Source: Maribacter sp.
Lineage (GTDB): Bacteria; Bacteroidota; Bacteroidia; Flavobacteriales; Flavobacteriaceae
Reading direction: 5' to 3'
Assembly: GCA_022865355.1 (NCBI GenBank)
Contig: JALHST010000028.1
Span: 1 to 32,914 of the forward strand
DNA: 32,914 bases
Part shown: in pieces, positions 1-32,115 of the stretch
Position numbering within the stretch: the first letter of the stretch is position 1
Layout of the letters: the number at the start of each line of letters is the position of its first letter
The notes under the pieces: model-generated
Database searches by the model: none
What the model was told of the DNA's origin: nothing
What the model saw: only the letters and a program-made list of their open reading frames with translations
Translations under genes and position numbers: made by a program

Positions 1-83
1 CTGTTTGATGAACAACTTATCATCAATGGTATTATGAAAACGAATAATGTTAATTTTTTCATTTATTGAATTTTAGAAATTAT

Positions 84-905
84 TTACTTAGGAAAAAGAA
101 AAACGACATTGGCTCTTATTCCCATATCGGCTTTAGCACTATTTGGTGCCGCTAAATTAAATCTTGGGCCAATAGAAAACTGGGTTTTTTGTGTTCCTAA
201 ACTGGTAACCGCACTGATGGTCGGAATAAACCAAACGGTTGTGGTATTTGCCTCCCAATTTTGGGTGATTTCAAACTGACCGCCAATACCGGCGCCACTT
301 TTCCAGTTATAGGTTAAAAATGGTTGAAAAAATAGCGTACTCACATCGCCGCGATCTTTATTGCCCGCTACACTCCAAATCTGATTGATTAAACCCCCAA
401 TGGTAAATCCGTTTGTTTGATATAAAGCAACGGCCGTTGGACCTACACCTAATTTTTTTGTTGTGAGAAAATCATCGGTTCCTGTGGGTACCAAAAACAC
501 AGGCCCTACACCCCATGTAAGTCCCCCTTTAGATTGAGAGGGACTTAAAAAGGCACTTAATACGGCATCTCCTAAACCAACTTCAGAATTTCCTTGACCG
601 GTAATATTGTACTGCGAGATAACAGGCAATATCAATCTTGTGATCAGATTTAAATTATCGTTCAAACTAATGGGCAGAACGGGTTGAATATTGAGCGTGT
701 TTTTTGAACCATTATTTGGGCCTATACCAAAATCGGTATTGTTTTGAAAGGGCACGCTGATTAAACTGGAAATAGGGTTTGCCAATTTTTTGGCCAGTTC
801 TTCAGCGCTTTCTTGAGGTTTTTCTTCAGGCGTATCTTGTGCCGACATTAGTTGAGAAAAGCAAATGATGCTAAATAGGAGTATTTTTAAAAGATAATTT
901 TTCAT
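84..905 (-). CDS. Neuromedin U-like outer-membrane beta-barrel protein
   Basis: A 273-aa secreted protein. Residues 1-22 are a classic Sec leader (MKNYLLKILLF... ending LMSAQ), followed by a charged Glu/Lys-rich linker to about residue 42. The rest alternates short polar turns with amphipathic strands (for example FGIGPNNGSKNTLNIQPVLP and the closing strand NVVFLFPK), as expected for an outer-membrane barrel. The pattern fits the Bacteroidota proteins often annotated 'neuromedin U' or 'transporter', whose role is unknown. The ATG at 905 directly precedes the leader, so the start is secure. It is the last gene of the minus-strand AT-rich block; the nearest upstream ORF is a 47-aa candidate 35 bp away. 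Family assignment is from recall of typical strand motifs; substrate is unknown. Confidence 0.75.
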   Translation of the reverse strand: MKNYLLKILLFSIICFSQLMSAQDTPEEKPQESAEELAKKLANPISSLISVPFQNNTDFGIGPNNGSKNTLNIQPVLPISLNDNLNLITRLILPVISQYNITGQGNSEVGLGDAVLSAFLSPSQSKGGLTWGVGPVFLVPTGTDDFLTTKKLGVGPTAVALYQTNGFTIGGLINQIWSVAGNKDRGDVSTLFFQPFLTYNWKSGAGIGGQFEITQNWEANTTTVWFIPTISAVTSLGTQKTQFSIGPRFNLAAPNSAKADMGIRANVVFLFPK

Positions 906-940
906 TTTACTTTATATTTATTCGGTCGATTTTTCTCAAT

Positions 941-1084
941 TTATATAGGATTCAAGTCACAAATGTAACTTTTAATTATAAATGGTATTTTTACCATTTC
1001 GACATAACTCTTCTGTTTGGTATCATCTACCTTTAAATCCTCAATATTTTTTATATATTTAGTTTTCAAATCGTTGTGAGCCAT
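941..1084 (-). CDS. Small ORF, 47 aa, unrecognised
   Basis: ATG-to-TAA frame of 47 codons beginning MAHNDLKTKYIKN and ending YICDLNPI. It reads like normal protein (mixed Lys, Glu, Asp and hydrophobics, no low complexity) and stops 35 bp before the barrel gene on the same strand. There is no signal peptide or recognisable motif. It may be a genuine small protein, the remnant of a larger gene, or chance. It is the only plausible coding content in the 375-bp gap between the barrel gene and the AraC-type regulator; nothing else was seen there. Confidence 0.25.
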   Translation of the reverse strand: MAHNDLKTKYIKNIEDLKVDDTKQKSYVEMVKIPFIIKSYICDLNPI

Positions 1085-1280
1085 GAGCTTCGATTCTTGA
1101 AGGAATTGTTGATCTCATGATTTAAAGTTTAAATGGTCTTATTTTTACAAAAGTGACTATTTACTTCAAAAAATAATATCCGAAATACGACAAATTTACT
1201 AAAAATTGATAGCCCTTACCTCTTCACACACTATAAAATATGTATTTCAGGTTATTACGAAAAAATATATTAACCTGTAG

Positions 1281-2189
1281 CTAAAGACTTATTAAATCCT
1301 GTTTAGGAGTTAAGCCATAAAAACTTTTATATAACTGAATGGTTCTGCCTATATGATTAAAACCAATATCATAAGACAAATCAGTAATGGTTTTACCTTT
1401 TATTTGTAGTAATGAAGTTTTTAATTTATTGATGCGAATAATCTGCAAAGCCCTTAAGGGAGAGGTGTTTAAATAATTTTTAAAATAGCGTTGTAAATTC
1501 CGTGGTGATATATGGAGTTCCTCACTAATACGTTCCAAGGTGAGTTCTTGATGATGATGGGACTCAAAAAATTTAAGTGTTTTTAAAACTTTTCTTTTTT
1601 GGCTGGTTTCATTGTGTTCTTTTTCAGTAGGTTTTAAATAGAACATATCAAATAATTCACTTGTTAATTCTTCCATTGCAATTGAAAAATCTAAATAAGA
1701 AGAATTTTGTATTATAAAATGATGTCTAAACAAATGAAGATACCTATTTAATTTATTTTGTTTCAATTCAATATACCTCGATTGTTTTGCATATTCACCC
1801 ATTGTTGGGTCGATATCCATGAGTTTTAAATAGGCATCTCCTATCTTTTTTGGGATTGAAAGGCAGGTATATTTAGTTTTATCTAACTTACTCATTATCT
1901 CAACTTTTGGAGGCATTAGTAATACTATGGGTTTGCAAATTTTCATCCCATTGTACCTTACTTCTTTTTTTGGGTCAGTAAAAAAAAAACCATACTCGGA
2001 ATTAGATTCTCCGTAATCAAGTAGTGAGTTTGAAAATTCTACCGTATTAATTTGATATTCTTCTCTAAAGAAAACATTGATATTGGATAGAATTTCGCCA
2101 CAACCCAAATGCTTTAGAAATACTTCATATCCCAATGAATTCAAAACATGTTGTACTTCTAATAAGTCTTTACTGTTGATTATTTTCAT
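1281..2189 (-). CDS. AraC-family transcriptional regulator
   Basis: 302 aa. The C-terminal ~95 residues (about 205-300) form an AraC/XylS double helix-turn-helix: first helix pair around LTLERISEELHISPRNLQRYF, second around TITDLSYDIGFNHIGRTIQLYKSFYGLTP, with the typical 'GF...R.FK..YG.TP' layout (here IGRTIQLYKSFYG). The N-terminal ~200 residues resemble no sensor domain I can name, so the effector is unknown. No membrane segment is visible, so it should be cytoplasmic. Its target may be its own promoter or the envelope genes around it, but no operator is evident. The ATG at 2189 is followed by a natural N-terminus. It lies downstream of a 581-bp gap with little coding content. Confidence 0.85.
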   Translation of the reverse strand: MKIINSKDLLEVQHVLNSLGYEVFLKHLGCGEILSNINVFFREEYQINTVEFSNSLLDYGESNSEYGFFFTDPKKEVRYNGMKICKPIVLLMPPKVEIMSKLDKTKYTCLSIPKKIGDAYLKLMDIDPTMGEYAKQSRYIELKQNKLNRYLHLFRHHFIIQNSSYLDFSIAMEELTSELFDMFYLKPTEKEHNETSQKRKVLKTLKFFESHHHQELTLERISEELHISPRNLQRYFKNYLNTSPLRALQIIRINKLKTSLLQIKGKTITDLSYDIGFNHIGRTIQLYKSFYGLTPKQDLISL

Positions 2190-2320
2190 TTTTATACCGA
2201 ATTTGAAATCATATTTTTTATTATCAAATCCTTAACAAATTGATAAAATAAACATCACAAAAATTGCTCAATTAATTTCGTAATTATTATCGTTTAATTT
2301 GCATCAATCAATTGCTTAAC

Positions 2321-2505
2321 ATGAGTGGAAAAAGGAGCCCTTATCAAGCAGGTAAATTAGGCGAAATCAGTGAGGAGCCTATGCTGATTTAATCATAGCA
2401 GATGGAAACCCTTTAGAGCAAATCAAACTAATCGAAGACCCGGAATCCCATTTCAAAGTAATCATAAAAGACGGGGGGATTTATAAGAACGAAATGAATA
2501 AATAA
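2321..2505 (+). pseudogene. Amidohydrolase C-terminal remnant, frameshifted
   Basis: The plus strand encodes MSGKRSPYQAGKLGEISE, then, after a one-base frame change near 2379, AYADLIIADGNPLEQIKLIE and a tail ending IYKNEMNK at a TAA (2503-2505). Together these form the characteristic last ~60 residues of imidazolonepropionase-like metal-dependent amidohydrolases, where 'GKLG.I.EG.YADLI..DGNPLE' closes the small beta-sandwich domain. The catalytic barrel is missing altogether, so this is a truncated and frameshifted relic. Restoring one base (GAG-GGA-GCC instead of GAG-GAGCC) would rejoin the frames. It is the only plus-strand coding relic in the first 8 kb and is unrelated to the neighbouring genes. 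An intact but different amidohydrolase lies at 20620-22044. Confidence 0.8.
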
Positions 2506-2695
2506 CATGAGTTGATTAATCGAATCTATCAATAGTTGAGCATTATCATAAGTCGCCATTTTCAATACTTCAAAAGGAGTGTTTTTAAAAGATGCTTTTT
2601 CATTTTATTTGATTTATAAATATTAATAAATTTAACCAAATACATGGAAAAAATCACTTTACACTTTTGAACACACTCATTATCAGGTGTTTGTC

Positions 2696-2713
2696 ACGCT
2701 TTCGCGAAAGCGT
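2696..2713. repeat. 18-bp perfect palindrome ACGCTTTCGCGAAAGCGT
   Basis: A perfect inverted repeat with the core TTCGCGAA, followed by TAAAAAG. It lies about 60 bp downstream of the stop of the lipoprotein gene at 2771-3460 (minus strand). It could be a dispersed extragenic palindrome or part of a transcription end for that gene. No second copy was seen in this window. Confidence 0.6.
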
Positions 2714-2770
2714 AAAAAGTATTAATTATGAGATAGTTACATTTTTTTGTCATGTACTAAATAAATTTAA

Positions 2771-3460
2771 TTATAACCAATCTATTGTTAGTGGTTGTTC
2801 TAATTGAAAGGTTGCTTCGGTACCTGCGGGGAATTGAATAACTTCACCTTTGCTTAATAAGCCAATGGCCCCACCAACGGCAGCTCCTTTTCCTGCCCCT
2901 TTACCACCTCCAAAAGCAGCACCGACACCGGCACCAATTGCCGCTTTTTTAACGGTACCACCTGCTTTATCTTCTGTTGTTACAACTTTGGTCTCTGTTT
3001 GAACGTGCTGCAGGTAATTATCTATAATAAATCCGTCAACCGTTACAGCAAATTCGCTTGCTCTACGATTGTTGTTATCAGATACCAAGACCTCCATCTG
3101 CACAACAGTTCCTTTAGGAATAAGAACCTTTCCATTCTGTGCCACATTCTTATCGAGTTCGACAAAAAAATGATCTCCTGCATTAAAATTCTTTGCAGTA
3201 ATCGTTTTCGTTGATTTCAAGAACAAAATAGTACCCTTTGGTAGTATTATGGGTTCTTGAATGACCACCTTTTCTTCAACTTTGGTCATAATTTCAGGAC
3301 TAGAGGGTTTGGGAACTTCATTTTCATCAGCGACTGAATCCAATTCTGCTTCAACCACAACTTGTTCTACTGGTGTTGATTCTGTTTTTTTACTGGCTTC
3401 CTTACAAGAAATCAGGCCAAGAATGGCGAATAATGTAATACCAAAAAGTTTAATTTTCAT
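2771..3460 (-). CDS. Glycine-zipper lipoprotein (paralogue 1)
   Basis: 229 aa. The leader ends in the lipobox LISC, giving a lipidated Cys at residue 20, so the protein should sit in the inner or outer membrane leaflet facing the periplasm. Residues ~21-70 are a low-complexity acidic/proline linker. Residues ~72-165 form a conserved beta-rich domain starting LPKGTILFLKSTKTI. Residues ~170-205 are a glycine zipper (KKAAIGAGVGAAFGGGKGAG...), and the end is a short beta segment (FPAGTEATFQLEQPL). The C-terminal ~155 residues are closely similar to those of the protein at 3695-4303. Function is unknown; glycine zippers usually mediate membrane association or oligomerisation. It probably shares a transcript with the upstream minus-strand genes. 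Confidence 0.8.
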   Translation of the reverse strand: MKIKLFGITLFAILGLISCKEASKKTESTPVEQVVVEAELDSVADENEVPKPSSPEIMTKVEEKVVIQEPIILPKGTILFLKSTKTITAKNFNAGDHFFVELDKNVAQNGKVLIPKGTVVQMEVLVSDNNNRRASEFAVTVDGFIIDNYLQHVQTETKVVTTEDKAGGTVKKAAIGAGVGAAFGGGKGAGKGAAVGGAIGLLSKGEVIQFPAGTEATFQLEQPLTIDWL

Positions 3461-3527
3461 TTCAATTATATTTTTAAATTATTTATTCCTATATAAACGA
3501 TAATTAACAGATAAAAGCAATGATTTT

Positions 3528-3680
3528 CTATCTCCAATGAGCGTCGCCTTCAAGACCAAATTCTAAGCCTTTAGAATTTGATTTATCTCCAAATATCAAA
3601 GATTGTAAAACTTGGGAATGCACATTGATTCCCGTTAACATCAGGGACAATACAACCATGTGCTTTATTTTCTTCCTCAT
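3528..3680 (-). pseudogene. Truncated secreted or outer-membrane protein, N-terminal 50 codons
   Basis: An ATG at 3680 opens a frame of 50 codons: a good Sec leader (MRKKIKHMVVLSLMLTGI ... VHSQ) followed by VLQSLIFGDKSNSKGLEFGL and an early TAG at 3528. The motif 'FGDK.NS..LEFGL.G' is how several flavobacterial outer-membrane barrel proteins (PorT-like size class) begin after the leader, so this is most simply the 5' end of such a gene with the rest lost. No continuation was found in any frame before the next gene. It sits 14 bp after the stop of the paralogue at 3695-4303 and ahead of the one at 2771-3460, so the remnant lies inside the duplicated pair. A genuine 50-aa secreted peptide is the alternative. 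Confidence 0.55.
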
Positions 3681-3694
3681 ATTTTTAAATCCTA

Positions 3695-4303
3695 TTACCA
3701 ATCCACTTTTAGTGGTAATTCAAGTTGAAACTGTGCTTCCGTTCCGGCTGGAAATTGGATACTCTGGCCCGGTTTTAACAAACCCACTGCACCACCAATA
3801 GCGGCTCCACGTCCTGCGCCTCTGCCACCGTCAAAGGCTGCACCTACACCTGCTCCAATAGCCGCCTTTTTAACTGTACCACCTGCCATATCCTCTGTGG
3901 TTACCAGTTTCGTCTCAGTTTTAACTTGTTGCAGGTAATTGTCAATGATAAATCCACCTACGGTCACACCAAATTGGCTGGCTCTGCGCTTATTATTTTC
4001 CGATACCAATACGTCCATTTGCACAATGGTTCCTTTCGGGATAAGTACTTTTCCTTTGCTGGTAACATCTTTATCCAACTCTACAAAAAAGTGATCTCCC
4101 GCATTAAAGTTCTTTGCGGATATGGTTTTGGTCGACTTTAAGAACAGGATAGTACCTACCGGTAAGGTTATGGGGTCCTGATCGTTTACCATTGGATCTT
4201 TATCACAATTGCTGTTATCGATCTTGGAATCGTTAGCTGTGAGCGTCATTCCCATTAAGAATAAGATGACCATAGTATAAGTTGTTTTTTTTATACTTTT
4301 CAT
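3695..4303 (-). CDS. Glycine-zipper periplasmic protein (paralogue 2)
   Basis: 202 aa. The leader (MKSIKKTTYTMVILFLMGMTLTAND) has no lipobox, so unlike its neighbour it should be released into the periplasm after ordinary signal-peptidase cleavage near Ala23. A short Asp/Asn-rich linker precedes the conserved domain (LPVGTILFLKSTKTI, residues ~47-140), then a glycine zipper (KKAAIGAGVGAAFDGGRGAG) and the terminal strand FPAGTEAQFQLELPL. The conserved part matches the 2771-3460 product nearly residue for residue, with the leaders and linkers unrelated: a tandem duplication with divergent targeting. Function is unknown. A possible promoter element lies about 125 bp upstream. Confidence 0.8.
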   Translation of the reverse strand: MKSIKKTTYTMVILFLMGMTLTANDSKIDNSNCDKDPMVNDQDPITLPVGTILFLKSTKTISAKNFNAGDHFFVELDKDVTSKGKVLIPKGTIVQMDVLVSENNKRRASQFGVTVGGFIIDNYLQQVKTETKLVTTEDMAGGTVKKAAIGAGVGAAFDGGRGAGRGAAIGGAVGLLKPGQSIQFPAGTEAQFQLELPLKVDW

Positions 4304-4426
4304 TTTGTTTTCTATTTAAATTATTCTAGTTCTTATTTTTTAAATTAATAATAAATCTCCTTCCATTCTCGGCGGTTTATGCAAAATGATTCACCCTCCT
4401 GGGAATCAGGTCTATAAAACTGGCAA

Positions 4427-4434
4427 CAAATATA
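4427..4434 (-). promoter_or_regulatory. Possible Bacteroidota -7 element TATATTTG
   Basis: The minus strand reads TATATTTG, matching the Bacteroidota sigma-ABfr -7 consensus TAnnTTTG, upstream of the gene starting at 4303. No convincing TTTG -33 partner was found at the right distance, and the implied leader would be about 115 nt, so the call is weak. Confidence 0.25.
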
Positions 4435-4574
4435 ATTTAATTAGGATAAAAGAGCGCCTTAAAAATCTTTGTTTTATTGCGGTCTTGGGTATTTGCCGAG
4501 CCCATTAAAACTAAAGAGACAAATTTATGAAAACAATTTCAACATTCGAAGTGATCCGTATAACTACCAATTAT

Positions 4575-5060
4575 TCAATCTAAACCCTCAAACTTAAAAT
4601 GTTGACCCCCAATAGAGGCCTCATACATTAAACCTCCTTTTACGCGAGTAAATACAGCTACACCATTGGCATTGGCGGCATCAATGGAGGCTCCCTTTGT
4701 TATAGCAACTGCCGACGCCTGGGCATCAAACTTCAATTTGTCATTAATGAAATGTTCAAAAGCCTCCCTATTTTCAAAGAAGATGACTTCGCTATATTGC
4801 TGACCCCCGGTCTGTAGCCCAAAGGAGGCCTGTTTCAATTTAGAGGATCCAACAATTTCCTTTGATTTATAGACCATACCAGTACCTGCGGCCCCGCCAA
4901 TAGCTAAACCCGCTTTGGTAATTTTAGGGAATACAGCATAGCCATAGGCCTTACTTACGAAGGTTGCCAATGTAGGAGATTCCTCTAACATTTTATCCAA
5001 AGCCTCTTTGGATTCTTTTTCCAATTCGGGATTCCAACCCCCAATTTGAGCGTTGCCCAT
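4575..5060 (-). CDS. SYLF/Ysc84-domain protein with damaged leader start
   Basis: 161 aa from the ATG at 5060. Nearly the whole chain is a SYLF (Ysc84, DUF500) domain: ALDKMLEESPTLATFVSKAYGYAVFPKITKAG, then a Gly-rich GLAIGGAAGTGMVYK and GLQTGGQQYSEVIFF, ending GLMYEASIGGQHFKFEGL. Such domains bind phosphoinositides in eukaryotes; the bacterial members are secreted and uncharacterised. In frame upstream of this ATG the DNA encodes 13 more residues, QVFLLLISLVFSF, which with MGNAQ would be a perfect signal peptide, but the codon before Gln is TGA (5100-5102). An ATG at 5101-5103 overlaps that TGA one base out of frame. Deleting the single A at 5100 would restore an intact leader. As it stands the product is either started inside the leader or not exported. 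Confidence 0.75.
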   Translation of the reverse strand: MGNAQIGGWNPELEKESKEALDKMLEESPTLATFVSKAYGYAVFPKITKAGLAIGGAAGTGMVYKSKEIVGSSKLKQASFGLQTGGQQYSEVIFFENREAFEHFINDKLKFDAQASAVAITKGASIDAANANGVAVFTRVKGGLMYEASIGGQHFKFEGLD

Positions 5061-5141
5061 AAAAGAAAAGACGAGACTGATCAGAAGGAGGAATACTTGT
5101 CATTTTGTTGTAAATAATGTTCTTATAACTTTGATTTTATG

Positions 5142-5573
5142 TTAAAAATTAAAGTTGAAACCAGTTATGAAGCCACCGGTATAGATATCATACATAAAGG
5201 AGTTATTCCCTTCGTAGTTTACATCATATCCTTGATAACCAATATGCCAGGAGCTTAGGTCTGAAATTTGATACCCTATGAGTAAGTTTAATTTCCAGCT
5301 GATTTTGGATCCTATGCCAAATCCGCCCACATCAAAGCGGGCGCTATTTATCCATTTATCGTTTACGGTCTTAAAGCGCATTCCAAAGTAGGGGTCTATA
5401 AAATCTAAATTTTTAGTAAATTCGTTCTGCTGACCTATCTGTATGCTTGGCTTTAGGCCAAAATAACGCAGCCCAAAAAGACCGTCCAAGGTTAGGAAGT
5501 CAGTTAAATTAATAAGGGTTTACCCGCCACCTAACTCCCAGATGGTTTGGTCAATTTCTACTTTGGTGCCTTT
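5142..5573 (-). pseudogene. Outer-membrane beta-barrel protein, C-terminal part with nonsense codon
   Basis: From 5489 to 5142 the frame is open (115 codons, TTG in place of a start) and ends with a typical barrel: FIDPYFGMRF, DVGGFGIGS, LLIGYQISDLSSWHIGYQGY and the terminal strand TGFNFNF. This follows the family with the signature 'DP..G.R......W.....D.GGFG.GS...W'. Upstream in the same frame the family sequence continues through an in-frame TAA at 5520-5522 (GTKVEIDQTIWELGGG, stop, TLINLTDF), where a Tyr codon is expected, until another TAA at 5574-5576. Further upstream nothing of the N-terminal half or leader can be recognised. The gene is therefore a 5'-truncated pseudogene with a nonsense mutation. 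Translation from the TTG would give a leaderless fragment, unlikely to reach the outer membrane. Confidence 0.75.
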
Positions 5574-5942
5574 TTATTTTTCGAGCAAAATAGTTACAGT
5601 AAAAATAGATATTACAGTAAGTTCATACAATAAACTAAAGTGGAAGAATTAAGAGCTGTTGGGGAATATACTATGGAAATTGTCTTTACCGTGAAATCAC
5701 AGGATTCATTAATTCATTATTATAAAAATATTAATGATTGAATAAAAAGGAAATCTATTTTTTTTGAATTTTAAATGATTCATTTTTAGTTTGAACAAAT
5801 AGCGTACTTATCCTTGTTTGTACACTGTAATTATGAAAAAATCTGAAGGTTGATGGCAATAGGCTTTGGATGAAAATAATCAGTACGGAATTTAAGAAAT
5901 GGCAATGTTTTTTTAGAGCAATATTAAATTGAAGTACGGCAC
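5574..5942. other. 369-bp AT-rich gap
   Basis: The region lies between the barrel pseudogene and the DUF481 gene. A 33-codon plus-strand frame (5640-5741, beginning at GTG) is the longest reading with protein-like composition, but it has no family signature. No promoter or RNA was recognised. Confidence 0.4.
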
Positions 5943-6962
5943 TTAATCCAATTTAAAGCCAAAACCACTGCTAAAAATATAATCCAGATCAGTTCCACTA
6001 ACTGCTGGCTGATTATCATAATTTAATGTGAATTCCGTTTTAATATAAAAATCCCAGGGCAGATCATATTTAAGGGTTATGTGGTAATCCAAACGAAACC
6101 TACCTCTTTCAGAGATACCTGCATAAAATTTAAAACCTGTATTTAGATCGAAATCCTTGAAGTCATACATATTAAAATTTGAACCAAGAAAGGCTTCAGA
6201 TGAGGTTTTATTAAAGGAGGTGTCCTCATAGTTTTCAATGTTGTAGGTGGCTCCAACAGTTACTCCAAAATAAAGCTTATTTGTACTTTTTATGAATCGG
6301 CCTAAACCTAAACTTGGGGTGACTCTTCCTGTTAGAGATTGCTCGGTGTTTGAAAGAAAGGAAACATCAGCTAACATATACCATTTTTTTGGTAGTAGCC
6401 GTATGGTCTCTAACATTGCGTCTACCCGTTTAACATCTCTCAGACCGTCCTGCGAAGAATTTAGCACGTTAATATTGGCTTTATTTCGCCATTTTTCACC
6501 AATGAATCCAACATTTCCGGCAATGGTGAACTGGGCATTATTGCTTGCTTTGGTAAAGTTATAGCCTAAATCTATACCGCCTTCGAATCTTTTCCAAAAT
6601 TCATCAAAGACTTCTACTAAATTGATCAGTTCGTTCAATTGGAATCGTTCAGAACTACCGTCTTCTAAAATAATAGTTACCCCACCGGAGTTTTCTGATC
6701 GTATATTCCCGTAAAAGCGCCTATCATTGGTTAATGTAATAAAACATTTGCGGCCGATGCTAAGTGTTTCTACCTTATTGAACTCAATTTTAAAATCCTT
6801 GTCGCTATAGGAAGTTTCCATGGTTAAAATACCAGTGGATAACGATTTTATCTCGCCAACCAAAATATCATTGTTTTTTAGGCGAATCGTGTCATTTTGA
6901 GCATAAGTAGTTAAACCGATCAATAATAATAATAAAAGATAGTTATGGATGGATATGGTCAT
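5943..6962 (-). CDS. DUF481-family outer-membrane protein
   Basis: 339 aa with a leader ending LTTYAQ at residue 22. Residues ~23-115 form a small soluble domain with two 'DG/ND..GEI' type beta motifs (IRLKNNDILVGEIKSLSTG and LTNDRRFYGNIRSENSGG), followed from ~120 by a barrel of about ten strands (GGIDLGYNFTKASNNAQFTI ... DYIFSSGFGFKLD), the DUF481 pattern related to E. coli YdiY. The last residue run FGFKLD is a standard barrel-closing strand. It is intact, unlike the barrels on either side, and apparently monocistronic. Its role is unknown; YdiY-like proteins are often linked to salt response, but nothing here confirms it. Confidence 0.8.
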   Translation of the reverse strand: MTISIHNYLLLLLLIGLTTYAQNDTIRLKNNDILVGEIKSLSTGILTMETSYSDKDFKIEFNKVETLSIGRKCFITLTNDRRFYGNIRSENSGGVTIILEDGSSERFQLNELINLVEVFDEFWKRFEGGIDLGYNFTKASNNAQFTIAGNVGFIGEKWRNKANINVLNSSQDGLRDVKRVDAMLETIRLLPKKWYMLADVSFLSNTEQSLTGRVTPSLGLGRFIKSTNKLYFGVTVGATYNIENYEDTSFNKTSSEAFLGSNFNMYDFKDFDLNTGFKFYAGISERGRFRLDYHITLKYDLPWDFYIKTEFTLNYDNQPAVSGTDLDYIFSSGFGFKLD

Positions 6963-7061
6963 TCAAAATATATGTCTCTCTAAAATATTAAAAATTAAGC
7001 TAAAAAACACATCTAATTTTTTCTCGAATAAAAATACGGAACTTATAATTTTTCATTTTTA

Positions 7062-7504
7062 TTAATGAATGCAGTATTTAAAAAACAATAAAAGGAATCT
7101 GTAATTTAATGATAATAGTACAGATTTTCAATCGCCTATAACACCTGCGTCTGTTCTAAAGGTCGAGTTTTTATTCCATTGTAATTGAGCGCCAATTAAT
7201 CCGTTCCATTCTTGCTTTAAAACTTTATCTTTACCGTATCATGTTATGGCTTCACCATTGGCAGACTCAATGCGCTCTACAATTGGGGTAAATTTTAATT
7301 GTTTTTTCTATTTTTATGGCATCTACCGGGTTGTTCGGATCAAACTATCCTAACCAGTTATAATATTCGGCAGAAATTTCATCTGCCCTAGCAAAGGTTT
7401 CAGGTAGAAGGGCATCTTTCATGTTGACCTCTTCAACGGTATTCGAGATTAAAGAGGCCTTCATGGCACCAACCCATAACCCAATGTAGCGATAAGGTTT
7501 GTTC
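7062..7504 (-). pseudogene. Decayed outer-membrane protein, C-terminal half
   Basis: Reading the minus strand from 7504 gives PYRYIGLWVGAMKASLISNT, then MKDALLPETFARADEISAEY and NWLG, a TAG (7345-7347), FDPNNPVDAIK, a frame change near 7290, TPIVERIESANGEAIT, a TGA (7239-7241), YGKDKVLKQEWNGLIGAQLQ, a TGA (7128-7130) and KSVLLSLNYRFL. The order and the closing 'D.KS.LLSLNYRF' strand fit a flavobacterial outer-membrane protein of ~400 aa. The TGA at 7128 probably replaced CGA (Arg). With three stops and a frameshift it cannot make protein. The N-terminal half is absent: at 7505 the sequence passes directly into a DUF6090 fragment. Confidence 0.75.
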
Positions 7505-7627
7505 TTACAAGGCGATTAAAATTCCGATTACCACTAGTACAATTTCTCCGATTGCATACCTGGGGTATTTTATGGGCTTATGGTCGTCTGCTAGTTGTTG
7601 ACGTATTCGCCAAAAAAAATTAAGCAT
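7505..7627 (-). pseudogene. DUF6090 N-terminal fragment
   Basis: From the ATG at 7627 the minus strand encodes MLNFFWRIRQQLADDHKPIK followed by YPRYAIGEIVLVVIGILIAL and a TAA. This is the highly stereotyped first 40 residues of DUF6090 membrane proteins ('ML.FFR.IR...L..GK..KYL.YA.GEI.LVVIGILIALQINNWN'): a short amphipathic head and one membrane helix. The reading stops exactly where the family continues QINNWN, and the next base pairs belong to a different decayed gene. It is therefore a gene head cut at a recombination junction. A longer frame upstream to 7765 only reads through repeat DNA and is not part of the protein. Confidence 0.75.
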
Positions 7628-7680
7628 CGTTTCTAATTCTATCGTCAAGACGTCTGCAAGCCGCTTTCTCAAACATCCCG

Positions 7681-7698
7681 TCCCGATAGCTATCGGGA
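7681..7698. repeat. 18-bp palindrome TCCCGATAGCTATCGGGA
   Basis: A perfect palindrome. A one-base variant (TCCCGATAGTTATCGGGA) occurs at 19670-19687 and a more decayed relative (CCCTATAGCTATCTGG) near 22724-22739. All three are extragenic, suggesting a dispersed palindromic repeat. Confidence 0.65.
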
Positions 7699-7753
7699 GT
7701 CTACCAGACTTTTGATCTTGCATTACTCCTACGCACCGGCTGGCCCGTTCGCT

Positions 7754-7776
7754 AAAAACATTCACTGAATGTTTTT
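7754..7776. repeat. Hairpin: 10-bp stem, ACT loop
   Basis: AAAAACATTC and GAATGTTTTT are exact inverted copies around ACT, with a T-rich run on both strands after the stem, so it could terminate transcription in either direction. It lies between two blocks of opposite orientation, a sensible place for a bidirectional terminator, but a repeat origin is equally possible. Confidence 0.5.
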
Positions 7777-8133
7777 TAACGCTCCGTCCTGTTTCGATAA
7801 TGAAAGAAGTTGGTCATTGAAAGGGTGTAGTTGGTTGTTCTTCCTAAGGTAATAATTTATTAAGCCATTCAAGCATAAAGATTATGCAAGAATATTACGG
7901 GCAGATTGTCCAGAAAAGGGTCAGTGAGGAGAGTGAGGAGATGGAAAGGATTTCGAGAAAAGTCCGTTACTGCATATATTTGATTTTGTTGCCCTTATTT
8001 GGGACGAAATCGAACAATTATATGCGCGACTTCCGGTATTAAACCTATTTTAGCGCTACAGCGATCAAGGCGAGACGAAACGTCCCTTCTTTTAAGTGGA
8101 TCTTAGGCGAATCTTATAAAAACGACCAAACCT

Positions 8134-28397: not shown

Positions 28398-29342
28398 TTA
28401 TTTTTGTTGCCCCGAACCCTCTTCAGCAATTTCAAGTCGAAGAAAGCGCGCCGCATTGTTATAAAAAATATCGCGCTTTTGCTGCTGTGTTAAAAAGGGT
28501 GCTTGTTCAATTGCTTCGACTGCTTTCCCAATCTTTTCGGGCCATACCATTTGGTCGGAACCAAACATCAGACGCTTTCCAAGGCCGGCCCGAATGAAGG
28601 CCTCCAGATAATCATAAAAGGCGGTACGGGGAATCACCCAGGTAATCGTAGAAACATCCGCATAGAGCTGGGGATACTGGTACATCATGGCGATCATTTC
28701 ATCGCGATAGGGATACCCGGCATTCTCGACAAAAAGCCGAAGGTCAGGATGGTTGACCAGTACCTCCTCCAACAGCAAGGGGCTGCCGGCAGCCGAACTG
28801 AAATGGGGCGTATAGGGTCCGATTCCCAAGGTGTGAATGAGTACGGGCAGGTCGAGCTCTTCCGCAAGCTTGAAATAAGGATCTAGCGATGGGTCATTGG
28901 GAGCGATACCCATAAGCTGTGTTCCGATTTCACCCATACCACTAAAACGTCCAGTAGCATATTCTACTTTGAGGCTCTCAAGGTCTTTGGTGCTGGGGCT
29001 CAGGATAAATGGGGATGCTATGAAACGCCCCGGAGCAGACTTGTCCCATTTTCGGACGGCCGATAAATCGACTCCGCTAAGAAAGGCCTTGACGATATTA
29101 TAACGGTCCATGGCCTCCATGGTTTTCTCCATCAACTGGGTGGGATCGACCGTGGCATGACCACTGCCTTGACAAGGTTCCGGTCGGCAGAAAGCCGGTA
29201 TCCCGGGAGGCACCTCCTCTGGAAGTCCGGTGTGCATGTGCATGTCGATAATCTGATGTTGACTCTGTTCTTTGGGATCATTTTGGGAATAAGCGTTTAC
29301 ACTCTCTAAAATGATAAAACAAATGGATAATAGATTTTTCAT
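28398..29342 (-). CDS. Amidohydrolase_2-family protein lacking the usual active-site His
   Basis: 314 aa with a leader ending NAYSQ (residue 20). It is related to the ACMSD/amidohydrolase_2 family (PF04909): His35 and His37 (DMHMHTG), Glu138 (GMGEIG), His170 (VLIHTLG) and Asp263 (MFGSDQMVWPE) are all in place, and the C-terminus (REIFYNNAARFL-like, here KRDIFYNNAARFL) is typical. The motif normally reading 'MHAGYP', whose His acts in catalysis in ACMSD-like enzymes, is ENAGYP here, with Asn207 replacing His. The metal site may therefore be intact while turnover is impaired. The alpha/beta hydrolase gene lies 52 bp upstream on the same strand, likely one operon. Confidence 0.82.
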   Translation of the reverse strand: MKNLLSICFIILESVNAYSQNDPKEQSQHQIIDMHMHTGLPEEVPPGIPAFCRPEPCQGSGHATVDPTQLMEKTMEAMDRYNIVKAFLSGVDLSAVRKWDKSAPGRFIASPFILSPSTKDLESLKVEYATGRFSGMGEIGTQLMGIAPNDPSLDPYFKLAEELDLPVLIHTLGIGPYTPHFSSAAGSPLLLEEVLVNHPDLRLFVENAGYPYRDEMIAMMYQYPQLYADVSTITWVIPRTAFYDYLEAFIRAGLGKRLMFGSDQMVWPEKIGKAVEAIEQAPFLTQQQKRDIFYNNAARFLRLEIAEEGSGQQK

Positions 29343-29394: not shown

Positions 29395-30300
29395 CTATGG
29401 TTCCTGTTTTTCCAGGACAGGTTTGGCCATCATTGATTCAACTACCTGCACAAACTCTTCAGGCTTTTCAAGCTTTGGGTCATCCCGGGCATCCTCGATA
29501 ATACGAAGGGCCCATCCATATTTTTTACTTGCTTTAAAGGCAACCTTTAGATCATTGGCCTTATCATGCCTTCCCCATATGAGTGTCACCGGAATATCAA
29601 TTTTCGCCAGTTCACCGTCGGGAATTTTTCCACTCATGGCACTCATTATCCCTTTAGCAGCTGCCTTCTTTTCCGGATGTTGGGCACAAGCCAAATTGTA
29701 TGCGAGGAAGGAGGGCCAGTAGATGCCTATGCTACTGATTAATCCCTTCAGGTCGTAGATGCAATGTGGCAAAAAGCGCAAATAGCTTTTCTCGGTGGGA
29801 TTAATCATGAACCTTAGAAATTGGTAAGCGAATCGGGGAGCGGGGCGAAAAGACGAAAGTCCAAGCGAGTCGACTAATACTAATTGCTTCACCTTTTCCC
29901 CGGCTTGAATAGCATAACTGGCCGCAATGGCTCCCCCGACCACGTGCCCGATTAGCACCGGGGGTTTGCTACAGGTTTTATAGAGAAACGCATCAAGCCA
30001 GTCTAGCACGATGTCCTTGGTAAGTTTTTCCTTAGCTGACCCCGAAGAACCATGGCCAGGAAGATCAGGGACTATTACATTGAAATTTTTGACCAGGTGC
30101 GGAATCACACGCATCCACCAAATGGCAGATTCACCCGGACCATGCAACAGAACGAAAGGGGTACCCTCACCCCCTTCAAGATAGGTAGTAAGAATATCTC
30201 CCACCTGTATTTGATATTCTTTTACTTGCAAATCATTGACGATTTCTTCTCGATAGGACTCGGCATTTTTAAATACCTCTTTTTTGGTTATTGCTTCCAT
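29395..30300 (-). CDS. Alpha/beta-hydrolase fold protein lacking nucleophile and His
   Basis: 301 aa, no leader. The fold is clear: LEGGEGTPFVLLHGPGES (oxyanion loop), FNVIVPDLPGHGSSG, the elbow LIGHVVGGAIAASYA, LVLVDSLGL, the acid strand VTLIWGRHDKAND (Asp246) and IIEDARDDPKLEKPEEFV. Two catalytic positions are missing: the nucleophile (G-x-Ser-x-G) is Val120 in GHVVG, and the His of the usual 'EDAGHDP.LEKP' is replaced (ARDDP, residues 271-275). Only the acid remains. As both losses are simple substitutions in an otherwise intact, full-length frame, a non-hydrolytic binding role is inferred. It is cytoplasmic, 52 bp upstream of the amidohydrolase_2 gene and 195 bp downstream of the TPR-LuxR gene. 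Confidence 0.85.
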   Translation of the reverse strand: MEAITKKEVFKNAESYREEIVNDLQVKEYQIQVGDILTTYLEGGEGTPFVLLHGPGESAIWWMRVIPHLVKNFNVIVPDLPGHGSSGSAKEKLTKDIVLDWLDAFLYKTCSKPPVLIGHVVGGAIAASYAIQAGEKVKQLVLVDSLGLSSFRPAPRFAYQFLRFMINPTEKSYLRFLPHCIYDLKGLISSIGIYWPSFLAYNLACAQHPEKKAAAKGIMSAMSGKIPDGELAKIDIPVTLIWGRHDKANDLKVAFKASKKYGWALRIIEDARDDPKLEKPEEFVQVVESMMAKPVLEKQEP

Positions 30301-30398
30301 GTTTGTTAATTTAACATGACTATTGCTAGTACAGGATAAAACTACGATGAATGGCTGCCTGCCGCATCGGTGTGATTACCCAATTTCTAGGGAAGCTG

Positions 30399-30420
30399 AA
30401 AAATGGGTACTTCTACCCAT
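30399..30420 (-). terminator. Hairpin between the LuxR-type and hydrolase genes
   Basis: ATGGGTA-CTTC-TACCCAT is a perfect 7-bp stem with a tetraloop (30403-30420), followed on the minus strand by a T run (30399-30403). It lies downstream of the regulator gene's stop and could terminate its transcript. Its symmetry also allows an operator reading. Confidence 0.5.
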
Positions 30421-30495: not shown

Positions 30496-32115
30496 TCAAA
30501 GCGCGCTATCCAGTAAGTGATGCTTCAGGGAGAAGGTGGTAGCTTCCACCCGCGACGATACGTCTAGCTTATTGAAGATATTACTCACATGACGATCTAC
30601 TGTGCGCTCACTGATGAACAATTCCCCCGCGATGGTTTTATTGGTTTTGCCCGATGCAACTCGCTGCAAAACCTGGAGTTCGCGAAGGGTCAGACCATGG
30701 GTCTCGTGATGTTTTTTTTTCGTATGCAACAAGCGATTGATCCGTTCCAGATCCGGTTTGGCCTTGAGTTGTTCAAAAATCCATTTGGCCGCCGCCAACT
30801 CCATAACCGAATTGTCTTTGTCATGCAATTCCTTATAGACAAGTCCTTTCAGCTCCCGGGTATACGCCGATTCATATGGTAGCTGTTGCGTATTCCAATA
30901 TTTCAAAGAGTTTAGCAATGGATCGATGGCAAGTTGAGGTCGCCCCTCGGCAAGAAAAACCGCTCCTTGGCAGTATGCCGATAGTGCTTGGAGATATGGC
31001 GCCTCAAATGCATGGGCGATATCACGGAGTTCCTTGGTGGCTTTATGGGCCTCTTCGGTTTTCTTGACGGCTATCATGATCCGCACGACGGCAGGGAGAA
31101 GTTCCGCACGTCTTCGTAAATCCTCGGTTTCCCTCAGGGCATTTTTTATAGAAGTCTCCGCCGCGTCGGCCTGTCCTTGTGCCAGGCGAAGTAAGGCAAA
31201 ACCGGGTTGTTGATTCCTGCCCCACTTGGCAGCTTCGCGATAGCCATCTTCGGCCGCTTCAAAATCTCCCAATAAACGCAGCAGTTCGGCCTTGCGGTAA
31301 TAAGCCTCCCCCGCTGCCGGTTCGCCCGGTGGTCGTGTCAACAGGGCGCAGGCGTCTTTGGTTTCCGTAAGTGCTTTGTGCCATTCCCCATGAAACTGAA
31401 TAATCTCGGCCCTGCGTACCAAACATTGGCCTCTAAAGGCGACGATGTCTGGTTGTGCAGCGCACCACTTGGTCAATGCCGATGTCCACTCCTGTGCCCG
31501 GCCCAAATCCCATACCTTGCGACAAGTCTCAATGACGGCGCAGTAGATGATTCCACAAGCTACGGGAAAAACTTCCTGGGTTTCTAAGGTAATCATGGTT
31601 TCATCAAGTAGTTTTATGCCTTGGGACACTTCCCCATGTTGGATCATGGCCTGTCCGTGTCCTAGCCGTCCAAGGGCGATCAGATCAGCATCGCCGAAGT
31701 GTTCTCCTATGCTTGCAGCCTGCTCAAAAAGTTCCACTGCCTGGGCAGCATGACCTCCGGAAAGCGCTACCAGAGCTTTGGGAATGAGGAATAATCCTTG
31801 TTCGGCACATGCCGGTACTTGTTCTTCATTGAGAAGCCGTTCGCCTCTGGCGATCCATCCACCGCCCCGTGCCCTCGCCCCGGTATTCAGGAGCATCAGG
31901 CCCAGCCAAAAAGCGCAGCGTACAGCCTTTTCGGTCTGTCGCAGGTCCAAATAGCCCTGATGGGCTTGTTCGAGAATCTGAAAACTTTCGGCCTCCTTCC
32001 CGGTGAGGTACGCGGCCAAGGCATAAGTTTCCAATTCCTTGGGCTCTAAGGCATTTTCCTTACCGGCTTTGATAAGCCGTGCGTACGTCTCGTTCCATTT
32101 TTCAAATCGTGGCAT
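30496..32115 (-). CDS. TPR-containing LuxR-type transcriptional regulator
   Basis: 539 aa, cytoplasmic. Residues ~20-440 are helical repeats of TPR character (YALAAYLTGKEAESFQILEQ, LFEQAASIGEHFGDADLIAL, YYRKAELLRLLGDFEAAEDG, YCQGAVFLAEGRPQLAIDPL). The last 67 residues are a LuxR/GerE helix-turn-helix: LTLRELQVLQRVASGKTNK, IAGELFISERTVDRHVSNIF and NKLDVSSRVEA. There is no N-terminal ATPase, so it is not a MalT/LAL-type regulator, and no phosphoacceptor domain. TPR-LuxR proteins of this kind are often found next to alpha/beta-hydrolase genes, as here. Its effector is unknown; a protein partner bound by the TPRs is a reasonable guess. The ATG at 32115 is preferred; nothing better is upstream. 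Confidence 0.85.
   Translation of the reverse strand: MPRFEKWNETYARLIKAGKENALEPKELETYALAAYLTGKEAESFQILEQAHQGYLDLRQTEKAVRCAFWLGLMLLNTGARARGGGWIARGERLLNEEQVPACAEQGLFLIPKALVALSGGHAAQAVELFEQAASIGEHFGDADLIALGRLGHGQAMIQHGEVSQGIKLLDETMITLETQEVFPVACGIIYCAVIETCRKVWDLGRAQEWTSALTKWCAAQPDIVAFRGQCLVRRAEIIQFHGEWHKALTETKDACALLTRPPGEPAAGEAYYRKAELLRLLGDFEAAEDGYREAAKWGRNQQPGFALLRLAQGQADAAETSIKNALRETEDLRRRAELLPAVVRIMIAVKKTEEAHKATKELRDIAHAFEAPYLQALSAYCQGAVFLAEGRPQLAIDPLLNSLKYWNTQQLPYESAYTRELKGLVYKELHDKDNSVMELAAAKWIFEQLKAKPDLERINRLLHTKKKHHETHGLTLRELQVLQRVASGKTNKTIAGELFISERTVDRHVSNIFNKLDVSSRVEATTFSLKHHLLDSAL

Follow-up and report, generated by a model that had tools for sequence, protein, structure and literature searches.

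A hydrolase-fold protein lacking its nucleophile and catalytic histidine in a LuxR-type regulator cassette: a candidate non-hydrolytic handler of small molecules

The window is the whole stretch of DNA analysed, 32,914 nucleotides from contig JALHST010000028.1 of Maribacter sp. Three genes on its minus strand are considered here. The upstream gene of the cassette (30496-32115) encodes a 539 amino acid TPR-LuxR transcriptional regulator with a GerE HTH. It is followed by a gene for a 301 amino acid protein with the alpha/beta-hydrolase fold (29395-30300), hereafter the pseudo-hydrolase, and 52 nt further downstream by a gene for an Amidohydro_2 family protein (28398-29342), the N-terminus of which resembles a signal peptide by eye. 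The gap between the regulator and pseudo-hydrolase genes carries an operator-like palindrome, TGGGTA-N4-TACCCA (30404-30419), which the regulator presumably binds, and a third half-site, TGGGTA (30377-30382, minus strand), 21 nt from the palindrome on the gene side.

A DNA search of the strain's own 3.97 Mb genome finds the pseudo-hydrolase gene as a single copy, and its frame is open from ATG to stop. Placement in the alpha/beta-hydrolase fold superfamily follows from Pfam matches to Abhydrolase_1 (3.3e-21), Abhydrolase_6 and Hydrolase_4, from an AlphaFold2 model with a pTM of 0.78, and from Z of at least 8 for 1000 of the best 1000 Foldseek-ranked chains. This is the second of two models (pLDDT 74.6, with most of residues 147-190 below 50); the first was poor (pLDDT 51) and was left out of the analysis. 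The nucleophile elbow (residues 118-123) reads G-H-V-V-G-G, and the His loop (residues 271-275) reads A-R-D-D-P. In an alignment of entry 5jz9 with a four-member profile, position 120 falls opposite the Ser of GNSLGG and position 273 opposite the His of QCGH, which we take to be the catalytic residues of this HsaD/BphD entry. In the second model, residue 120 sits at the elbow, flanked by strand 115-119 and helix 121-136, Asp246 follows strand 238-243 (strand 7), and Asp273 is in the loop after strand 264-268 (strand 8). By this model, residues 120, 246 and 273 occupy the three triad positions, and only the acid, Asp246, is left of the triad. The sequence-only reading had described an intact, full-length frame in which Val120 stands for the nucleophile (GHVVG), the catalytic His is gone (ARDDP) and Asp246 is the sole triad residue remaining; the frame, the alignment and the model bear it out on each point.

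The closest known structures are those of meta-cleavage-product (C-C) hydrolases, and HsaD, BphD, CarC and DxnB2 share the fold. The best profile matches are the HsaD/BphD entries 2wud (1.3e-22) and 5jz9 (2.1e-22). The best structural match by VIA is CarC 1j1i (Z 27.4, 243 aligned residues, rmsd 3.0), families missing from the VIA list not being counted as excluded. Single-sequence and Foldseek searches instead give the putative lipase 4opm as best match. Unlike HsaD/BphD, in which 5jz9 has Ser and His at positions 120 and 273, the window protein has neither.

At least nine intact orthologues were found, with 39-49% identity: six belong to another family of the host's phylum, while two come from haloarchaeal plasmids and one from a Sinorhizobium meliloti plasmid. 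The plasmid relatives, from Haloterrigena turkmenica (48%), Halorussus halophilus (49%) and S. meliloti LMB1 (40%), cover 92-94% of the query; these three family members are among the best 15 of 852 matching plasmid records. The annotation of the haloarchaeal members is that of hydrolases and no more. A phylum sample of 395 genomes yielded three more orthologues (48-51%), all in one other family, and 92 genomes of that family contain six in total, with no orthologues beyond these six in 244 genomes of the relatives' class. No orthologue was found in the host's own family or class (119 genomes at E<=1e-15, 395 genomes at E<=1e-20). The 119-genome search gave four other matches, 31-38% identical and three of them partial, with Ser or Asp at the elbow (GNSLG, GHSMG, GHDIG and GHSMG), and the other matches from the 395-genome class search (G320) and the phylum sample (G320 and G564) are canonical, with GLSQGG and His. 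A contig scan gave six weak relatives, from Cyclobacteriaceae and Cytophagales, all with the elbow GHSMGG; their taxonomy is in line with Bacteroidota as the host's phylum. Among viral contigs, no relative was seen with A1, P0001 or a canonical relative as query; another scan with a canonical relative returned one locus, and a mixed alignment led by P0001 returned three loci, two of which have the elbows GNSFGG and GHSLGG.

Across the ten intact members, a small aliphatic residue occupies position 120 (V, I, I, I, L, L, A, L, L and I), and none has the Ser, Cys or Asp of a working elbow. The His of the loop after strand 8, in the register set by 5jz9, is replaced by Asp in 10/10, and the acid after strand 7 is Asp246 in 10/10. 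Whether close orthologues share the two changes was a check asked for by the sequence-only reading, and all ten intact members have both losses. A sequencing error or a lesion specific to this strain is excluded, both changes being present in all nine intact orthologues. Asp273, Asp274, Asp246, Glu57 and Arg244 are each found in 10/10, and different members use different codons for Asp246, Asp273 and Asp274. Glu57 and Arg244, invariant in the family, differ in the three canonical relatives compared. Invariant positions make up 70 of 301 overall, with 8/15 in the oxyanion loop, 5/14 in the elbow, 7/12 in the acid loop, 6/13 in the His loop and 14/83 in the cap. The sole invariant His is His53, in an HG motif. 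No Ser or Cys is invariant except Ser258, which is predicted to lie in a helix behind the acid, and Cys180, which belongs to the cap, modelled with low confidence. Cys180 might conceivably serve as an alternative nucleophile, although there is no second invariant His.

The ten members group together as a fully supported clade (100/100) in a 21-row tree, apart from canonical relatives. A GxSxG-type elbow is recognised by pattern in 10 of the 11 outgroup rows, the exception being a second hydrolase of G690. The simplest reading is that the two losses had one origin. The patchy spread of the family suggests gene transfer. Finite dS was obtained for 13 of 45 pairs, and for these Nei-Gojobori dN/dS is 0.12-0.38, with dS itself mostly above 1.6 and near 1 in two of the 13; dS is saturated in the other 32 pairs, including all nine with the window gene. 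The dN/dS comparison proposed with the sequence-only reading gave values below 0.4 in every measurable pair, while for the window gene itself saturation leaves no ratio.

Three broken copies were also found, in G869, Natrinema and Salinigranum. The G869 copy (L056, 1479-2295 of G869:C367), flanked by an intact regulator and an intact methyltransferase, has suffered an internal deletion and contains a stop, and its C-terminal part still reads GDDP. On the Natrinema plasmid (L026, 4881-4961) and the Salinigranum plasmid (L028, 4857-5051), a gene fragment directly follows an intact methyltransferase, with only query residues 261-287 and 17-81 recognisable, respectively. The pair was therefore once present there and the pseudo-hydrolase gene has been lost. 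No trace of the gene is seen behind the methyltransferase of Natronorubrum. Some lineages have thus retained the gene and others have not, and its loss comes more readily than that of the genes next to it.

In 8/8 bacterial loci with an intact pseudo-hydrolase gene, the gene immediately upstream encodes a TPR-LuxR regulator and runs in the same direction; the regulator is 44-50% identical to that of the window in the six phylum relatives and 43% in S. meliloti. In the 395-genome phylum sample, where a few candidates were scored per genome, the regulator at E<=1e-80 occurs among the matches listed only in G000, G556, G690 and G741, the same four genomes that hold the pseudo-hydrolase gene among the matches listed. 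In the 92-genome family, a close regulator (44-50%) is present at eight loci in seven genomes, four weaker matches (28-31%) being left out. Six of these loci have the intact gene, one has the broken copy of G869, and one, a second locus of G868, has no such gene. Pfam recognises a LuxR HTH in the window regulator; its TPR_MalT match is weak (5.3e-4), at 19.8 bits against a cut-off of 45. Both haloarchaeal loci are without a LuxR-family regulator in the 10.8 kb around the gene, and a FilR1-type regulator precedes the methyltransferase there. Regulator relatives also occur on plasmids of Streptomyces (two), Embleya, Rhodococcus and Phyllobacterium, where the surrounding stretches contain no match to the pseudo-hydrolase.

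In 8/8 intact bacterial loci, the gap between regulator and gene contains TGGGTA-N4-TACCCA or a variant altered at one position in each half, and the palindrome is absent from both haloarchaeal loci. The half-site TACCCAT fits what we take to be the NarL-type heptamer, TACYYMT. The third half-site is spaced at 20 nt in the six intact phylum relatives (as TGAGTA in G840), and S. meliloti has no more than a weak form of it. None of 100 shuffles of the window contains the window palindrome, and the exact palindrome occurs once in the 3.97 Mb genome, where base composition would predict 0.22. Of 234 genomes from the class of the relatives, 7 have the tripartite pattern, G869 included, once each and always in the regulator-gene gap; read backwards as a control, it has one match, in G654. 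The loose palindrome TGGGTR-N4-TACCYA is not specific by itself, occurring at 0-2 further places in each of seven genomes (0-3 when read backwards). The gaps after the plasmid regulator relatives were scored for near-matches to the palindrome at three mismatch limits, with 500 base shuffles for comparison. With at most one mismatch, one was seen (shuffle mean 0.012, 6 shuffles as high); with at most two, two were seen, in L019 and L020 (mean 0.046, none as high); and with at most three, again two (mean 0.61, 57 as high). The gaps of L018, L021 and L022 have no near-match.

Some of these loci are arranged differently. The second G868 locus (L055, 4670-8255 of G868:C258) has a second copy of the regulator with an adjoining palindrome, where the tripartite pattern is absent, a 226 amino acid protein that lacks a Pfam match and appears membrane-bound by eye, and a methyltransferase of the haloarchaeal type, with no pseudo-hydrolase. 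From this locus, the cargo of the cassette seems interchangeable. On the Rhodococcus opacus plasmid (L020, 4954-9336), the long frame of the regulator homologue runs N-terminally into a stretch that by eye is protein-kinase-like; a near-match to the palindrome follows the homologue, and then a single protein combining hemerythrin and polyketide-cyclase. On the Phyllobacterium plasmid (L019, 6001-9165), the regulator homologue is in three pieces, followed by TGGGTGGAATCACCCA at 7395, and the neighbour is an FAD-binding_3 gene.

The enzyme encoded next to the pseudo-hydrolase varies. It is a SAM methyltransferase in 5/8 bacterial loci and an Amidohydro_2 protein in the window and in G556, the two being 67% identical and at the same place, and neither is found in G741. 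The methyltransferase gene is downstream in four of the six intact phylum relatives (G690, G842, G840 and G868), whereas S. meliloti has a fusion, with the methyltransferase as the C-terminal half of the protein. Just upstream of the gene, both haloarchaea carry an S. meliloti-type methyltransferase (48.5% identity in Haloterrigena). The family is thus linked to two methyltransferase types, which are 23-33% alike. Loci with a broken or missing gene still have the methyltransferase, namely those of G869, Natrinema, Salinigranum, Natronorubrum and the second locus of G868. PADLOC gave no match for the pseudo-hydrolase or the amidohydrolase, and only HTH or methyltransferase cross-matches for the other neighbours scanned. 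No description of the cassette was recognised in the freely readable literature searched.

Several known proteins have this fold with an incomplete triad. The gibberellin receptor GID1 is, according to PMC3531792, hydrolase-derived, with the catalytic His lost and a small molecule in the pocket. The window protein is like it in descent and in the loss of the His; unlike the window protein, GID1 has kept its Ser, comes from hormone-sensitive lipases, is a plant protein and has a known ligand. NDRG proteins such as NDRG3, as described in PMC7022630, have triad residues replaced by non-reactive ones and put the fold to non-enzymatic use. The replacement is a likeness to the window protein, which nevertheless has no Pfam Ndr (PF03096) match at E<=1e-3; of three other members scanned, that of G868 narrowly exceeds the Ndr cut-off (23.8 bits, cut-off 23.3), with a far higher Abhydrolase_1 score of 95.2. 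DUF687, DUF3530, Arb2 and CGI-58 are described in PMC11878206 as being without all or part of the triad. The window protein differs from the first three of these in having no Pfam match to them, and in host and gene context. It also differs from the serine-free carboxy-lyases, which by the definition in PMC11878206 keep an acid-His dyad, the His being absent in 10/10 members.

The leading explanation, held with slightly less than even confidence, is that the pseudo-hydrolase is a non-hydrolytic protein that handles a small molecule, carried as cargo of a dedicated regulator cassette. The regulator would sense its signal, bind the palindromic site and switch on the operon. The protein would bind a small molecule in the old active-site pocket, which would now carry carboxylates (Asp246, Asp273 and probably Glu57 and Asp274), and the bound molecule would be held, or handed to the enzyme encoded alongside (a methyltransferase in most loci, the amidohydrolase in the window). 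The gene comes immediately after the operator-like site, so its product is probably an output of the regulator. Neither partner alone explains the gene, which persists in archaea without a LuxR-type gene and in three bacterial loci (the window, G556 and G741) with no adjoining methyltransferase. Both absences are best explained if the protein has its own function, either small-molecule binding or new chemistry at the former active site with its acidic lining. A binding function is plausible; strictly conserved Asp246, Asp273, Asp274, Glu57 and Arg244 would fit ligand binding, and would equally fit a new catalytic site. Invariance of the motif loops alone is no proof of a working pocket, since ordinary hydrolases conserve these loops too. 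The partner is not constant, and the neighbours are retained at loci where the gene is not; both points count against the cargo explanation. The pseudo-hydrolase is an accessory rather than the core of the cassette, as regulator and methyltransferase outlive the gene in several loci. A further proposal, somewhat unlikely in our estimation, is that of a transferred signal cassette shared by rhizobia, haloarchaea and two families of one bacterial phylum, in which a fold with the all-carboxylate set Asp246-Asp273-Asp274-Glu57 would act as a metal-binding catalyst of a new reaction or as a receptor for a signal molecule modified by the adjacent methyltransferase.

A direct role in regulation has a possible model. 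The E. coli esterase Aes has the alpha/beta-hydrolase fold, and MalT has a LuxR-type HTH. According to PMC10427625, Aes inhibits MalT by direct interaction, with repression passing through T38 of the nucleotide-binding domain. By analogy, the pseudo-hydrolase could be a feedback inhibitor or co-sensor of the TPR-LuxR regulator, with hydrolysis unneeded and the triad lost for that reason; we regard this as unlikely, while giving it real weight. The likeness lies in the pairing of a hydrolase-fold protein with a LuxR-type regulator, seen here as gene adjacency and co-occurrence. The regulator adjoins the gene in every intact bacterial locus, the two occur in the same four of 395 genomes among the matches listed, and the weak TPR_MalT match points the same way. 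However, both haloarchaeal loci keep the protein and its residues with no such regulator nearby, and the regulator also occurs with other neighbours, without such a protein. The window regulator has no Pfam match to the domain that carries T38, Aes has esterase activity where the window protein has lost its triad, and a contact role alone would leave the conserved acidic residues at the old active site unexplained. The protein could also be an enzyme that would use a new carboxylate-based site (Asp246-Asp273 with Glu57, Asp274 and Arg244), perhaps metal-dependent, and act as a lyase, isomerase or hydrolase on a compound shared with the adjacent methyltransferase or amidohydrolase. This reading, also rather unlikely but a genuine contender, draws on the specific change of His to Asp in 10/10, followed by a second invariant Asp, on Glu57 and Arg244 being invariant here and different in canonical relatives, and on neighbours that are small-molecule enzymes. 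Serine-free carboxy-lyases of this fold do exist (PMC11878206), but they keep the dyad that is broken here. Furthermore, His53 is the sole invariant His, and position 120 drifts among V, I, L and A.

The protein may instead serve the adjacent methyltransferase as a dedicated subunit or activator with no catalysis of its own, comparable to the lipase cofactor CGI-58. The S. meliloti fusion would suit such a role, as would an adjoining methyltransferase in 4/6 intact phylum relatives and 2/2 haloarchaea and the involvement of two methyltransferase types. The window, G556 and G741 have no adjoining methyltransferase, however; matches to the haloarchaeal methyltransferase in the window's own genome are only 27-37% identical, and the methyltransferase outlasts the gene at the five loci named above, making this reading improbable. 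Least credible, and very improbable indeed, is a decaying pseudogene whose frame is open by chance. Two catalytic residues are lost, and truly broken copies or fragments do exist in G869, Natrinema and Salinigranum, but the same two changes are fixed in ten intact bacterial and archaeal genes. At the family level, the pseudogene reading is refuted by the shared changes, the low dN/dS where measurable and the conserved gene order. The earlier view that this is not a random pseudogene therefore stands, on losses shared by 10/10, dN/dS below 0.4 in every one of the 13 measurable pairs (of 45) and His53 as the sole invariant His. The regulator, the operator-like site and the methyltransferase or amidohydrolase neighbours are additions to the sequence-only reading.

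The same double loss is common to archaea and bacteria, and the bacterial copies come with their own regulator and operator-like site. Signal, ligand and partner are therefore each directly testable. If true, the cargo explanation would show how one of the commonest enzyme folds can be put to non-hydrolytic use.

Elsewhere in the window, two adjacent genes at 2771-4303 encode proteins of 229 and 202 amino acids with closely similar C-terminal halves by eye, which looks like a tandem duplication. G+C per kb is 0.29-0.38 in 1-8000 and 0.42-0.57 in 8001-32000, as if stretches of different origin had been joined.
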